Assembly: GCA_005880615.1 (NCBI GenBank) | Contig: VBID01000135.1 | Coordinates: 1-42,154 of the forward strand | Direction of reading: 5' to 3' | Source: Chloroflexota bacterium | Lineage (GTDB): Bacteria; Chloroflexota; Dormibacteria; CF-121 | Length of the DNA: 42,154 nucleotides | Part shown: in pieces, positions 34,722-39,627 of the stretch | Numbering within the stretch: position 1 is the first letter of the stretch | Layout: every line of letters starts with the position of its first letter | Notes under the pieces: generated by a model | What the model was told of the DNA's origin: nothing | The model's database searches: none | What the model saw: the letters and a program-made list of their open reading frames with translations, nothing else | Made by a program: the position numbers and the translations under genes

Positions 34722-35171
34722 CTAGTTAGTCGGCGGGCCGCTATCGTCCCGCAGCCGCTGGACGACCTCGACCAGCATCTTGTAGGTCAGGCTGGCGTTC
34801 CTGTTCAGGAGGGGTTTGATCTCCCAGGATGCCAGGGTGTAGCAGACGGTGTCCTCGTCGGCGATCACGCTGGCGGTCCGAGGCCCGCCGCCCAGGACGG
34901 CGATCTCGCCGAAGAAGTCGTTCGGGCCGATGTGGTTGAGGATCCGTCCCTGCTTCTTGACCGACGCCCGGCCGGACCGGATCACGTACAGACCCAGGCC
35001 CGTCTGGCCTTCCTCGACGATCGGGGCGCCGGCCTTGTAGCTCTGCTCCTTGACCAGCTGCGACAGTTGCTGCAGCTCGTCGTTGGATAGGCCCTTGAAC
35101 AGTGGGACCCGCCTCAGCTGCTCGCGGGCGTCCATCCTGGCCATGACTGCCGACACTATACCTTTCAGCAT
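34722..35171 (-). CDS. stand-alone cyclic-nucleotide-binding domain protein
   Basis: A 149-aa protein that is almost entirely one cNMP-binding domain (EQLRRVPLFKGLSNDELQQL; GAPIVEEGQTGLGLYVIRSG; the phosphate cassette FFGEIAVLGGGPRTASV). The cassette keeps Glu and Arg, so cyclic-nucleotide binding is plausible. No DNA-binding domain follows, so it must act by contact or as a sensor subunit. GAGGGGA from the adjacent repeat precedes the ATG at 35171; a start at 35144 is also possible. It is one of four neighbouring genes with this domain and is divergent from the next. Confidence 0.88.
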   Translation of the reverse strand: MLKGIVSAVMARMDAREQLRRVPLFKGLSNDELQQLSQLVKEQSYKAGAPIVEEGQTGLGLYVIRSGRASVKKQGRILNHIGPNDFFGEIAVLGGGPRTASVIADEDTVCYTLASWEIKPLLNRNASLTYKMLVEVVQRLRDDSGPPTN

Positions 35172-35265: not shown

Positions 35266-35676
35266 GTGGCCCCAAAGAAAGTCGACAGCCTGCGCAAGGT
35301 CCCGCTATTCTCGCATTGCTCGTCAAGCGAGCTCGACTTCCTGTCCACGCGAATGGACGAGGTCAGCCTGGACCCTGGGAGGATCCTGATCTCGGAAGGC
35401 CAGCCGACCGACTCGTTTTTCGTGCTGCTGGCGGGCGAGGTGGAGGTCTCGCGCAAGGGCCAGCCGGTCCGGCGGATGGTTGCTGGGGAATTCTTCGGGG
35501 AGATCGGGATGCTCGATCGCGGGTCGGCCACGGCGACGGTGAAGACCACACAACCGGCGGAGGCGCTGGTGATGAGCCATGCGCAGTTCCGCGACGCGAT
35601 CAAAGCGAATGACGCGCTGGCCTTGAAGGTCATTGCGGCGATGGCCGAACGGCTTCGGGCGACCGACCCGGGGTAG
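35266..35676 (+). CDS. stand-alone cyclic-nucleotide-binding domain protein
   Basis: A 136-aa protein consisting of one cNMP-type domain: DSLRKVPLFSHCSSSELDFL, then GRILISEGQPTDSFFVLLAG and the cassette FFGEIGMLDRGSATATV. The cassette Arg that contacts the cyclic phosphate appears replaced (SATATV in place of PRAATV), so it may bind weakly or not at all. The GTG start at 35266 follows an in-frame ATG...TAG mini-ORF; there is no clear Shine-Dalgarno for the GTG. The neighbouring cNMP genes suggest a shared signal. Confidence 0.86.
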   Translation: MAPKKVDSLRKVPLFSHCSSSELDFLSTRMDEVSLDPGRILISEGQPTDSFFVLLAGEVEVSRKGQPVRRMVAGEFFGEIGMLDRGSATATVKTTQPAEALVMSHAQFRDAIKANDALALKVIAAMAERLRATDPG

Positions 35677-36007: not shown

Positions 36008-36107
36008 TTCACTCCTCCTGTCTCGGTGATAGGGGCAGGCTAGTCCCGCTCGTCGTGACGGCCTATGCCAAGCGGCACCGGTGCCCTGTGTCATTTGTCA
36101 CCGCGGC

Positions 36108-36136
36108 TTGACATCTCTCCGGTGCCCTCCCATAGT
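36108..36136 (+). promoter_or_regulatory. sigma70-type promoter of the M50-cNMP operon
   Basis: TTGACA (36108-36113), a 17-bp spacer and CATAGT (36131-36136). Transcription should start near 36143, followed by GGAGAGGAGGGGA and the TTG start. Confidence 0.7.
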
Positions 36137-36156: not shown

Positions 36157-38313
36157 TTGCCGACGAGCGAGCAGGTGGACGCGGTCGCGCCACCGGCCGA
36201 ATCAACCGTCTGGGAAGCGCTGGCGGAGCGGCTCGACCCTGCCAACTACGTGCCACACCTGCGGCCCGGCCTGACCTGGGCGCGGCTGCGGAGCCGCCAC
36301 GGCGAGCGGTACACCATGATCGGCCGTGACGGCACATACCTGCGTCTGACCGAGGAGGAGGACCAGGTGGCGACCAGGATGGATGGCACCCGGAGCCTCG
36401 CCGTCCTGGAGGCCGACCTCGTCGAGTCGTCGGGCAGCATGGACCTCAACGGCGTCACCGAGCTGGTGGCCGACCTGCGGGAGGCCGGCTGCCTCCTCGA
36501 TCCGCCGCGCGACATCTTCGACGACCTCCGCCTGCGGCTGCATCCGCCCAAACGGCGCCGCCGGGCGCTGACCGAGGGTGGCCTGCTGATGATGCGCGTC
36601 CCGCTGCGCGGCATCGACCGCTTCGTGACGTGGATGCACGACCACATCGGCTGGATCTTCTTCACCCGCCCGGTCCTGGTGGCCACGGTCGTGATCACCG
36701 TCGCTGGCATCGCTACGGCCACCCGCGAGATCCTGAGTGGGCGCGATCCGTTTGCGCCGATTGCCGGGTCTGGGATCGCCGGGCTGCTGGCCCTGGTCGT
36801 CGCCTACTACGTGGTCACCTTCGTCCACGAGAGCGCCCATGCCGTGACCTGCAAGCATTTCGGCGGGCGCGTCCCCGAGGGCGGCTTCCTGCTCTTCTAC
36901 TTCATGCCCGCCTTCTACGTGGACGTGACCGACGCGTGGCTGCAGCCGTGGCGGCGGCGGATCGCCGTCTCCTGGGCCGGCCCCTACTCGGGCTTCATGC
37001 TGGCCGGGGTCAGCGCCATCCTGGTCTTCATCCTGCCGCCCGGCTGGCTGATCACCACCGTGCTGTTCAAGCTGGCGATCGTCTCGTACATCGATGACGC
37101 GTTCAACCTGATGCCACTCCTCAAGCTGGACGGCTACTACATCCTGATGGACTGGCTCGAAATCCCCGAGCTCCGAGAGCGAGCCATGGGCTTTATCAAG
37201 GGCCCCATGTGGCGCCAGTTACTGGACCGGCAGCGGTTCACGCGGCGCGAGGTCCTGTACGCCGTGTTCGGCATCCTGGCCGCCCTCTACTCATCCCTCT
37301 CTATCTACTTCGCGGTCCTTTTCTGGATGCGCCGGCTGCGGCCCATCGTGCGCCCGCTGTGGCAATCGCCTGGCTTCCTCGGGCGGGCCTTCGCGGTCGT
37401 GGTGGTGGCGGTGATCTTCGTGCCGATTACGATCACCCTGGGGCGGCGTCTCTGGCGCTACCAGCAGCGCCTTCGCCAGGCACCCGGAGCGGCCCGTCAG
37501 GCCATCGAAGGCATCCTCGTCCGCGACCGGCTGCGTCTGCTCGAAGACTTGGCCTTCCTCGAGAGCCTGCCGGCGCCCGCCATCGACCGCCTGGCGCGCT
37601 CGGCTCGGCTCAAGCGCTATCGCCGCGGCAACCAGGTGGTGCGGCAGGGGGACCAGGGCAGCCAGTTCTTCGTCATCGCCTCCGGGCAGGCGACGGTGCT
37701 GGTGGACGATCGCGAAGTCGCGCACCTGGGCAAAGGAGACTTCTTCGGTGAGCGGGCGCTGCTGGGGGCCGGCCGCCGAGCCGCTACCGTTCTCGCCGAG
37801 ATTGATTTGACCGTGCTGATCTTCGAAGAACGCGCGTTCTGGCAGGAGCTGGCCGGGACGGTCGAGTGGCAGACCCGAGTGCGGGCGGCACTGGAGGAGC
37901 GTGGGCAGCTTTCGGAGGTGGGACTGTTCCAGGATCTCGACGAGCGGGAGCTGGATCTGCTGGCCGTCAAGCTGACAGTCTCGGATTTCGACCGCGGGGA
38001 CGCCCTCGTCCGCGAGGGCGAGCCGGGGGATGCGTTCTATGTCGTTCGCGAGGGGACGGTCGAGGTGCGCCGGGAAGGGGTTCAGCGGCGGCTGCGCCTC
38101 CTCCACCCGGGCGACTACTTCGGCGAGCTCGCCCTCCTGCACGGGACGCCCCGAAATGCCACCGTCCAGGGCGTCGAGCCAGGTTCGGTCTGGCGGCTGG
38201 GCAGCCGGGATTTCCGCGACCTGGTGGGCGGCTACCTGCGGCTGGACGAGGAGATCGCCGCGACCGCCGCGGCGCGACAGGTTGGTGGCCATCGGATGCG
38301 GAGGCGCTCCTGA
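36157..38313 (+). CDS. M50 site-2-type metalloprotease with PqqD-like N-terminus and two cNMP-binding domains
   Basis: A 718-aa membrane protein. Residues ~30-115 resemble the PqqD-like winged domain of peptide-linked M50 proteins (LRPGLTWARLRSR; YLRLTEEEDQVATRMDG). Residues ~165-440 are the intramembrane protease: zinc site HESAH, then FMPAFYVDVTDAW, and LLKLDGYYILMDWLEIPELR supplying the third ligand Asp. Two cNMP domains follow (~470-590 and ~595-710), with intact phosphate cassettes FFGERALLGAGRRAATV and YFGELALLHGTPRNATV. A cyclic nucleotide thus probably gates proteolysis of a membrane substrate. The TTG start has GGAGAGGAGGGGA upstream and its own promoter. The zinc-knuckle gene overlaps its stop (TGATG). 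Confidence 0.9.
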   Translation: MPTSEQVDAVAPPAESTVWEALAERLDPANYVPHLRPGLTWARLRSRHGERYTMIGRDGTYLRLTEEEDQVATRMDGTRSLAVLEADLVESSGSMDLNGVTELVADLREAGCLLDPPRDIFDDLRLRLHPPKRRRRALTEGGLLMMRVPLRGIDRFVTWMHDHIGWIFFTRPVLVATVVITVAGIATATREILSGRDPFAPIAGSGIAGLLALVVAYYVVTFVHESAHAVTCKHFGGRVPEGGFLLFYFMPAFYVDVTDAWLQPWRRRIAVSWAGPYSGFMLAGVSAILVFILPPGWLITTVLFKLAIVSYIDDAFNLMPLLKLDGYYILMDWLEIPELRERAMGFIKGPMWRQLLDRQRFTRREVLYAVFGILAALYSSLSIYFAVLFWMRRLRPIVRPLWQSPGFLGRAFAVVVVAVIFVPITITLGRRLWRYQQRLRQAPGAARQAIEGILVRDRLRLLEDLAFLESLPAPAIDRLARSARLKRYRRGNQVVRQGDQGSQFFVIASGQATVLVDDREVAHLGKGDFFGERALLGAGRRAATVLAEIDLTVLIFEERAFWQELAGTVEWQTRVRAALEERGQLSEVGLFQDLDERELDLLAVKLTVSDFDRGDALVREGEPGDAFYVVREGTVEVRREGVQRRLRLLHPGDYFGELALLHGTPRNATVQGVEPGSVWRLGSRDFRDLVGGYLRLDEEIAATAAARQVGGHRMRRRS

Positions 38314-38540
38314 TGCAGTGCTGGGTCTGCGGCTTAGCCGCCCAGGGGGTCTGCCGCTTCTGCGGGCGGGCGATCTGCAAGGACGATGCCAAGACCCTGC
38401 CCTTCTTCCTGGAGGTGTTCCCGTCAAACGGGCACCTGCTGGGCCTGGCGCTCGATGACGCCCTCTACTGCGGGATCTGCCAGCCCAAGCCCGAACCGGT
38501 CCCCATGGAGTTTCTGGAGAAGCCGAGTGAGGGCGAGTGA
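38313..38540 (+). CDS. small zinc-knuckle protein coupled to the M50 protease
   Basis: A 75-aa protein with cysteine pairs CWVCG, CRFCGRAICKDD and CGICQP, giving two likely zinc sites in a B-box/ribbon-like layout, joined by LPFFLEVFPSNGHLLGLALD. The ATG shares a base with the protease TGA (TGATG), so the two are translated together, which suggests a cofactor or substrate of the protease. Family not recognised. Confidence 0.78.
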   Translation: MQCWVCGLAAQGVCRFCGRAICKDDAKTLPFFLEVFPSNGHLLGLALDDALYCGICQPKPEPVPMEFLEKPSEGE

Positions 38541-38631
38541 CGAACGGCACACCTGGGGTGTGATGAACGGCATGGTAGTCAGATCAAGGTGAGTCCATCG
38601 TGGTGGCAGCTCAAAGAAAGGAGGTGACAGT

Positions 38632-38859
38632 ATGGCCGAAGGTACCGAAACCGTGAGTGTGAGAAAGAGTCCGAAGCGCATTGCGACCAAGCGGGCGGCG
38701 AGCAAACGAATCGCTAGCAAGCGCGTAGCCAGCAAGCGCATCGCGAGCAAGCGAGTGGCGAGCAAGCGCGTAGCCAGCAAGCGTGTGGCCAGCAAGCGTG
38801 TGGCTAGCAAGCGAGTCGCGAGCAAACGTACCGCTGCGAGCAGGTCGTCTCTTTCGTAA
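38632..38859 (+). CDS. 75-aa lysine/arginine-rich protein made of ASKR(V/I) pentads
   Basis: After a 12-residue head (MAEGTETVSVRK) the protein is eleven consecutive pentads (residues 13-67), mostly ASKRV or ASKRI, ending AASRSSLS. Net charge is strongly positive and there is no hydrophobic core, as in histone H1-like tails. It probably coats nucleic acid. AAAGGAGGTGA lies just before the ATG, an almost perfect ribosome site, and an intrinsic terminator follows, so this is a well-expressed single gene. Codons vary between pentads (AAG/AAA, CGC/CGA/CGT, GTA/GTG/GTC) while the amino acids hold, arguing for selection on the protein. Confidence 0.85.
   Translation: MAEGTETVSVRKSPKRIATKRAASKRIASKRVASKRIASKRVASKRVASKRVASKRVASKRVASKRTAASRSSLS
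38668..38832 (+). repeat. eleven 15-bp tandem coding repeats
   Basis: Units of the type GCGAGCAAGCGCGTA encode ASKRV; synonymous changes keep the peptide constant. Copy number could change by slippage in steps of five residues. Confidence 0.85.
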
Positions 38860-38891: not shown

Positions 38892-38920
38892 GGGCAGCCC
38901 GGTGGCTGCCCTTCTCTTTT
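38892..38920 (+). terminator. intrinsic terminator after the pentad-repeat gene
   Basis: GGGCAGCC-CGGT-GGCTGCCC forms a perfect 8-bp stem followed by TTCTCTTTT, the best Rho-independent terminator in the window. Confidence 0.85.
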
Positions 38921-38946: not shown

Positions 38947-39627
38947 ATGGATCCCCTGCCGGTCCTCTCCCGGACGGCCCTGTTCCAGGGGATACCGGCT
39001 GGTGAACTCGAGCCGCTGGCTGCGGCCGCCAGGGTGCGCACCTACACCGCTGGCTCATATCTCTTCCACGAGGGCGATCCGGCTGGCGTCCTGTATGTCA
39101 TCATGCGAGGCCAGGTCAAGATCGCCCGGATGGGGACAGGTGGCAACGAGGCGGTCTTCGCGGTACTCCTTCCGGGCGACAGCTTTGGCGAGGTGAGCCT
39201 CTTCGACGACGAGCCGGTCCGAAGCATGGACGCCGAAGCGATGGAGCCGACCGAGTGTCTGACTCTGGAGCGGCAGGCACTGCTGGACTTCCTGGAGCGG
39301 AACCCAGCCGCGGTCCGGCATATCATCCGAGTGCTGTGCGGACACCTGCGGCGGGTGGACGAGAGTTTCTCCGAGGCGGTGTTCCTCGACATCCCCGGCC
39401 GGGTGGCGCGGAAGCTGCTCGATCTCGCCGCCGAGCACGGCCAGAAGACCAGCCAGGGCGTCCGGATCGATATGCACCTCACCCAGCGAACCCTGGCGGG
39501 TATGGTTGCGGCCAGCCGTGAGAACGTCAACCGCGCGCTGTCTCGACTCGCCGGCCGCGGCGACATCATCCAGGAGGCCGGCTACATTACAATCGTCCGT
39601 CCCGCCGAGCTGCGCAAACGCAGCTGA
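38947..39627 (+). CDS. Crp/Fnr-family transcriptional regulator
   Basis: A 226-aa regulator. The N-terminal domain (RTALFQGIPAGELEPLAAAA; GSYLFHEGDPAGVLYVIMRG; FGEVSLFDDEPVRS) is a cNMP-type sensor; the cassette lacks the R-[TS]-A pattern of true cAMP binders, so the ligand may differ. There are no Fnr-type iron-sulfur cysteines at the N-terminus. The C-terminal winged helix is clear (DIPGRVARKLLDLA; LTQRTLAGMVAASRENVNRA, then LSRLAGRGDI). The ATG at 38947 is used; the open frame before it crosses the preceding terminator. It probably regulates the surrounding cNMP genes, which is inference from proximity. Confidence 0.93.
   Translation: MDPLPVLSRTALFQGIPAGELEPLAAAARVRTYTAGSYLFHEGDPAGVLYVIMRGQVKIARMGTGGNEAVFAVLLPGDSFGEVSLFDDEPVRSMDAEAMEPTECLTLERQALLDFLERNPAAVRHIIRVLCGHLRRVDESFSEAVFLDIPGRVARKLLDLAAEHGQKTSQGVRIDMHLTQRTLAGMVAASRENVNRALSRLAGRGDIIQEAGYITIVRPAELRKRS

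Follow-up and report, generated by a model that had tools for sequence, protein, structure and literature searches.

A Chloroflexota operon encoding an M50 peptidase with tandem cNMP domains and a possible role in processing leader-tagged repeat peptides

Intramembrane peptidases fused to an RRE domain are known from daptides, where they serve in leader removal, and removal of the leader by the daptide site-2 peptidase has been reported to be RRE-dependent (PMC10036551). The Os1348 cluster of Pseudomonas Os17 likewise contains a predicted peptidase (PMC7726476). In a different protease fold, cNMP, FHA and Zn-ribbon domains carried by PrsW proteases have led to their interpretation as signalling peptidases (PMC3482391). 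Here we describe an operon from a Chloroflexota bacterium, located on contig VBID01000135.1 within a stretch of 42,154 nucleotides that we refer to as the window. The operon has the appearance of a signal-controlled peptide-processing system that has not been described before, and a literature search of limited scope returned no paper combining site-2 protease, cyclic nucleotide-binding and intramembrane. The preliminary description of this DNA, as a sensor-equipped membrane protease with a small Cys-rich protein, was right in outline, while an RRE-like domain of the protease and the leader peptides of related loci had been overlooked.

The first gene (36157-38313, + strand) encodes a protein of 718 residues and begins with a TTG start codon preceded by a AGGAGGGGA ribosome-binding site. 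Searches of the reading frame against Pfam, named families and orthologues gave the domain order of a PqqD/RRE-like region, an M50 core and two cNMP domains. The core matches Pfam Peptidase_M50 with 31.9 bits, above the cut-off, and contains six hydrophobic segments as judged by hydropathy. The HESAH zinc-binding motif (residues 224-228; 36826-36840, + strand) follows immediately C-terminal to the hydrophobic segment of residues 205-223. An LDG-type third-ligand motif occurs in the sequence LKLDGYYIL, residues 322-330, with LDGYY itself at residues 324-328 (37126-37140, + strand). Both motifs are intact, as the earlier claim of an active M50 protease required, and by sequence the protein is an M50 (site-2-type) protease. 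Within the taxonomic family, orthologues from other genomes share 52-61% identity over the M50 part, and HExxH is intact across the complete homologues compared, with the exception of that at locus L082. One scan of genome contigs returned mostly cNMP matches and no orthologue, and Cupin and Sensor matches on the protease fell under the cut-off and were disregarded. A second, distant M50 protein, in a 643-aa frame with 28% identity, is encoded in the window's genome on contig C213 (15450-16025, locus L004).

The N-terminal PqqD/RRE-like domain (36259-36558, + strand) was assigned from Pfam PqqD matches of homologues, 11 of the 25 aligned N-termini matching with a best value of 8.9e-7. The window copy of the domain alone gave no PqqD match at E 0.1, being too divergent to match by itself, so the assignment rests on homology. 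AlphaFold single-sequence models of this domain (pLDDT 43) and of the small protein described below (pLDDT 54) were too poor and were not used. Outside the cNMP part, the best named match is the daptide RRE-peptidase family NF041824 (daptide_HExxH, MpaP/DapP), with 192.2 bits over residues 56-422, the N-terminal two thirds of the protein and a stretch that includes most of the PqqD/RRE-like domain; membership was rejected at the cut-off of 300. Like MpaP/DapP, the window protease has an M50 core, with a putative RRE-like domain N-terminal to it, and lies near small precursor genes; unlike them, it also has two cNMP domains and a zinc-type partner. Daptide decarboxylase, aminotransferase and methyltransferase genes and ELExMEAP precursors were not noticed among the neighbours scanned, a part of all neighbours, and the leaders of related loci belong to the Os1348/NHLP clan rather than to the ELExMEAP type. 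A further likeness is to the YydH/LiaK epipeptide maturation protease (NF058609), also an M50 metalloprotease of a peptide-maturation cluster; however, the match of 46.6 bits is below the cut-off of 225 and is limited to the M50 core (residues 212-341), leaving the cNMP part outside.

The C-terminal part comprises two cNMP_binding domains (Pfam PF00027, 134 bits against a gathering score of 27.5), domain A at 37537-37872 with the cassette FGERALLGAGRRAAT and domain B at 37909-38241 with the cassette FGELALLHGTPRNAT, both on the + strand. In the cNMP family, the cassette Glu and Arg bind the cyclic phosphate. Both residues are found in each domain, bearing out the proposal that the two phosphate cassettes are complete. 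Among the C-terminal cNMP pairs of homologues, the acidic residue of the cassette is invariable and the Arg nearly so, the exceptions being the Chloroflexaceae-like L075 and one domain of L089. With this conservation, the cNMP domains of the M50 protein are probably functional, and gating of the protease by a ligand is plausible; since L075 is without the cassette Arg, nucleotide gating, if real, would not be universal. The tandem arrangement resembles TIGR03896 (cyc_nuc_ocin), a protein with tandem cNMP domains whose name refers to bacteriocin-type transport, with 44 bits; the match nevertheless covers the cNMP part alone and lies below the cut-off of 161, and no gene for a peptide transporter was identified next to the operon in the window. 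Two single-domain cNMP proteins are encoded just upstream in opposite orientations (34722-35171, - strand; 35266-35676, + strand), the latter with a 71% identical relative 3' of the module at L066.

As a source of ligand, four proteins of the window's genome with a class III cyclase domain (PF00211) could serve, all of them encoded on other contigs. The same placement bears on whether the locus belongs to anti-phage signalling related to Pycsar, with the protease as a cNMP-triggered effector. PADLOC returned matches to Pycsar effectors, but its best stretches span the cNMP part alone (residues 475-583), the matches arising from the common cNMP fold, and no cyclase lies beside the effector. We consider this explanation very improbable.

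The second gene (38313-38540, + strand) encodes a zinc-type protein of 75 residues and starts inside the stop codon of the M50 gene through an ATGA overlap, so that the translational coupling noted earlier stands; the pairing is also conserved in relatives. Its putative ligands are spaced CX2C-X7-CX2C-X4-C-X2-[D/H]..CX2C. Residues C3, C14, C17, C22, C53 and C56 and an invariant CRFCGR block are common to the 14 family members, and C6 is kept in 13 of them. The label of zinc knuckle was not upheld, as the CCHC spacing (CX2CX4HX4C) is absent and CxxC, CxxC, C..[D/H] and CxxC occur instead. Pfam C5HCH was likewise rejected (23.5 bits against a cut-off of 26.3). No evident transmembrane segment is present. 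From its sequence pattern, the protein is of the zinc type, conserved and with multiple cysteines as putative metal ligands.

The small protein and the protease co-occur widely. Among 18 genomes of the taxonomic family searched, the eight with a close M50 orthologue are the same eight that have the small protein. Across 400 genomes of the phylum, a related M50 protein was found in 57, the small protein in 65 and both in 47 (Fisher 3e-36, uncorrected for phylogeny and partly reflecting shared ancestry); most M50 genomes (47 of 57) thus keep the small gene, a co-occurrence that the preliminary description had put forward as a check, and the case that would have refuted its proposal, orthologous loci mostly without the small protein, was not borne out. 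The two genes are adjacent in 18 of the 47, spanning nine taxonomic families, mostly with the small gene downstream and with it upstream in G183, G205 and G080. In Chloroflexaceae- and Roseiflexaceae-like genomes, they lie far apart and are without an adjacent leader gene.

The small protein also occurs in 18 genomes without an M50 match, 15 of which carry a PrsW-type operon comprising a PrsW metalloprotease (PF13367), a cNMP protein, a ParA/MinD ATPase, the small protein and usually a protein of about 130 residues. The PrsW-linked copies of the small protein form one clade of 16 members with support of 0.91, and genome G080 carries both M50 and PrsW modules, each with its own copy. These operons resemble the PrsW signalling peptidases described previously in that a zinc domain and a cNMP sensor accompany an intramembrane protease (PMC3482391). 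PrsW and M50 are unrelated protease folds, and in this phylum PrsW is encoded in an operon of several genes, alongside ParA and a member of the same small-protein family. One such operon lies at L103 (4989-8247), with similar loci at L104 and L113-L126, and the M50 form is absent from most of the genomes concerned; the L104 operon (genome G407) has no cNMP gene within the region covered, and L125 and L126 show a permuted gene order.

This distribution bears on what the small protein does. Translational coupling and co-occurrence with M50 would fit a substrate of the protease, as was first suggested, or a dedicated chaperone for it. Set against such a role are the conserved cysteine ligands, the lack of an evident transmembrane segment and, in 15 genomes where this M50 protein is missing, the equal pairing with unrelated PrsW operons, and we find it improbable that the small protein is either. 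The invariance of the metal-ligand cysteines and the pairing with an unrelated PrsW speak in particular against a natural substrate. Because the small protein follows cNMP-linked intramembrane proteases of either fold, its occurrence points to a partner dedicated to the protease, not to a substrate of M50. A broader possibility, which we hold with some reserve, is that the CRFCGR protein defines an undescribed Chloroflexota module of cNMP-linked intramembrane proteolysis, being a common adaptor that would link the sensing of nucleotides with cleavage inside the membrane and would work either with RRE-M50-cNMP proteins on leader-tagged repeat peptides or with PrsW, a separate cNMP protein and a ParA ATPase.

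The unit reaches beyond the small gene to include a third gene and a terminator-like hairpin (38892-38911, + strand; 1.1 such sites expected by chance). The third gene (38632-38859, + strand) has a GGAGGTGA ribosome-binding site and encodes a leaderless, basic repeat peptide of 75 residues, (SKRVA)n, with nine SKR-type units formed by a 15-bp tandem repeat. Differences between the repeat units number 18, 8 and 94 at the first, second and third codon positions, respectively; being mostly at third positions, they indicate that the repeat is kept at the protein level, under selection. In relatives, the gene at the same position encodes an Os1348/NHLP-clan leader (NF038399) followed by short tandem repeats that vary by genome (STVESQ, NSAEAL, AQSDTL, DTGTV, GSAEA and ARNT). 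The third genes of L067, L068, L069 and L080 score 42.7, 40.5, 41.6 and 60.9 bits against NF038399 (cut-off 40), those of other relatives score under the cut-off, and more distant forms encode leader and tail proteins of some 200-500 residues. These leaders resemble Os1348 NHLP-clan peptides and Franean1_4349 (PF14407), from which the loci here differ by their variable tandem-repeat tails and, in the window, by a leaderless copy. Among the leaders listed, an NF038399 leader lies within 5 kb of 18 of the 56 M50 loci, where about 0.2 would be expected, and leaders of this family were found in 161 of the 400 phylum genomes at E 0.001. Past the leader, at residues ~54-59, a motif of the DQRMSK, ERLSK or PERQAA type is common to leaders with unrelated tails, and we infer that it is a natural candidate for the cleavage site. 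The NHLP-clan leader peptides beside the protease in relatives would form, on genomic context, a better substrate class than the small protein. A search of the window's genome at E 0.001 gave no NF038399 leader, so the substrate there is a guess; in the related genome G006, a 32-residue basic peptide occupies the place of the third gene.

The leader linkage also bears on classical regulated intramembrane proteolysis, in which a nucleotide-gated site-2 protease would cut a membrane anti-sigma factor or receptor and the leaders would be passengers or separate signals. An M50 core joined to sensory domains is what such a protease would look like; PrsW proteins with cNMP, FHA and Zn-ribbon domains have been read in this sense (PMC3482391), and PrsW operons combine a cNMP protein with the same small-protein family. 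However, the shared-neighbour comparison gave no recurrent membrane-protein neighbour among those listed, and the PqqD/RRE-like domain together with the repeated leader linkage indicates soluble precursors. We regard the classical scheme as unlikely.

Several homologues depart from the window's arrangement. At L082 (6947-9178), YQVAQ replaces HExxH in a pseudo-protease that retains the cNMP domains, the small-protein gene and the leader gene. At L083 (7163-16946), the gene for an FHA-PqqD-M50 protein precedes those of three leader-bearing proteins of ~320-1020 residues, two of which have OCRE-like WxDPxTGxxYDP repeats. The M50-cNMP2 protein of L076 (3192-6095) has an extra C-terminal AhpC/TSA (peroxiredoxin-like) domain. 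In L090-L095, L097 and L098, the protein is rearranged, with the cNMP domains N-terminal to the PqqD-M50 part; L090-L095 have adjacent, usually divergent leader genes and no small-protein gene nearby. The retention of every other part in the pseudo-protease and the large, partly OCRE-like leader proteins beside the FHA-PqqD-M50 protein could be taken to mean that the M50 fold is a nucleotide-responsive membrane scaffold or peptide conduit, passing or retaining leader-tagged repeat proteins with proteolysis secondary. The intact HExxH of the remaining complete homologues examined argues against this, and we give it little credence.

A sigma70-type promoter, TTGACA-17-CATAGT, precedes the operon at 36108-36136 (+ strand), as the preliminary description had proposed; it agrees with the consensus at 10 of 12 positions (0.2 expected in shuffles), and TTGAC and CATAGT-like hexamers occur at equal spacing upstream of the orthologues compared. 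Just 5' of the promoter is a CRP-like palindrome, GTGTCATTTGTCAC (36088-36101; 0.00 expected in shuffles), and a second, degenerate one, GTGACGAACGGCAC (38537-38550), lies 5' of the third gene; orthologues L066-L072 have a similar palindrome in the corresponding position. Over the whole genome, the perfect palindrome TGTGTCN4GACAC occurs in G007 and G013 at two positions each, which are at this locus and correspond to the two palindromes just described, and in G016 at four positions, these two and two others. A Crp/Fnr-family regulator with cNMP and HTH_Crp_2 domains is encoded at 38947-39627 (+ strand) and is a candidate for the operator-binding protein; Crp-family orthologues adjoin the module in L067-L069 and L073.

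We speculate, with confidence just short of even, that the operon encodes an intramembrane peptidase, guided by an RRE and regulated by cNMP, for the processing of leader-tagged repeat peptides. In such a mechanism, the PqqD/RRE-like N-terminal domain would bind the leader of a cytosolic precursor, and the M50 core would cleave near the DQRMSK/ERLSK/PERQAA-type motif, where the leader gives way to the repeat tail. Nucleotide occupancy of the two cNMP domains would gate the reaction, and the small zinc-type protein would serve the protease as a dedicated partner or adaptor. Both the third gene and the transcript of the protease would be controlled by the neighbouring Crp-type regulator, acting at the CRP-like palindromes. 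The leader would have been lost in this genome, and the substrate would probably be the basic repeat peptide, or some other. The proposal draws on the daptide family match, the leader linkage and shared motif in relatives, the conserved cassettes, the four cyclase-domain genes, the co-occurrence of the small protein and the palindromes, which are largely confined to the locus. Counting against it are the missing NF038399 leader in the window's genome, the lack of a PqqD match for the window's own N-terminal domain, the wide separation of the two genes in Chloroflexaceae- and Roseiflexaceae-like genomes, the lost cassette Arg of L075, the pseudo-protease of L082 and the part that shared ancestry has in the co-occurrence.

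If this proposal is true, the tandem cNMP version of an RRE-fused peptidase puts peptide maturation under direct second-messenger control, and the orphan Os1348-type leaders that are common in the phylum gain a candidate protease. The gene for the 75-residue protein, common to two unrelated protease families, offers a handle for finding and testing such modules.
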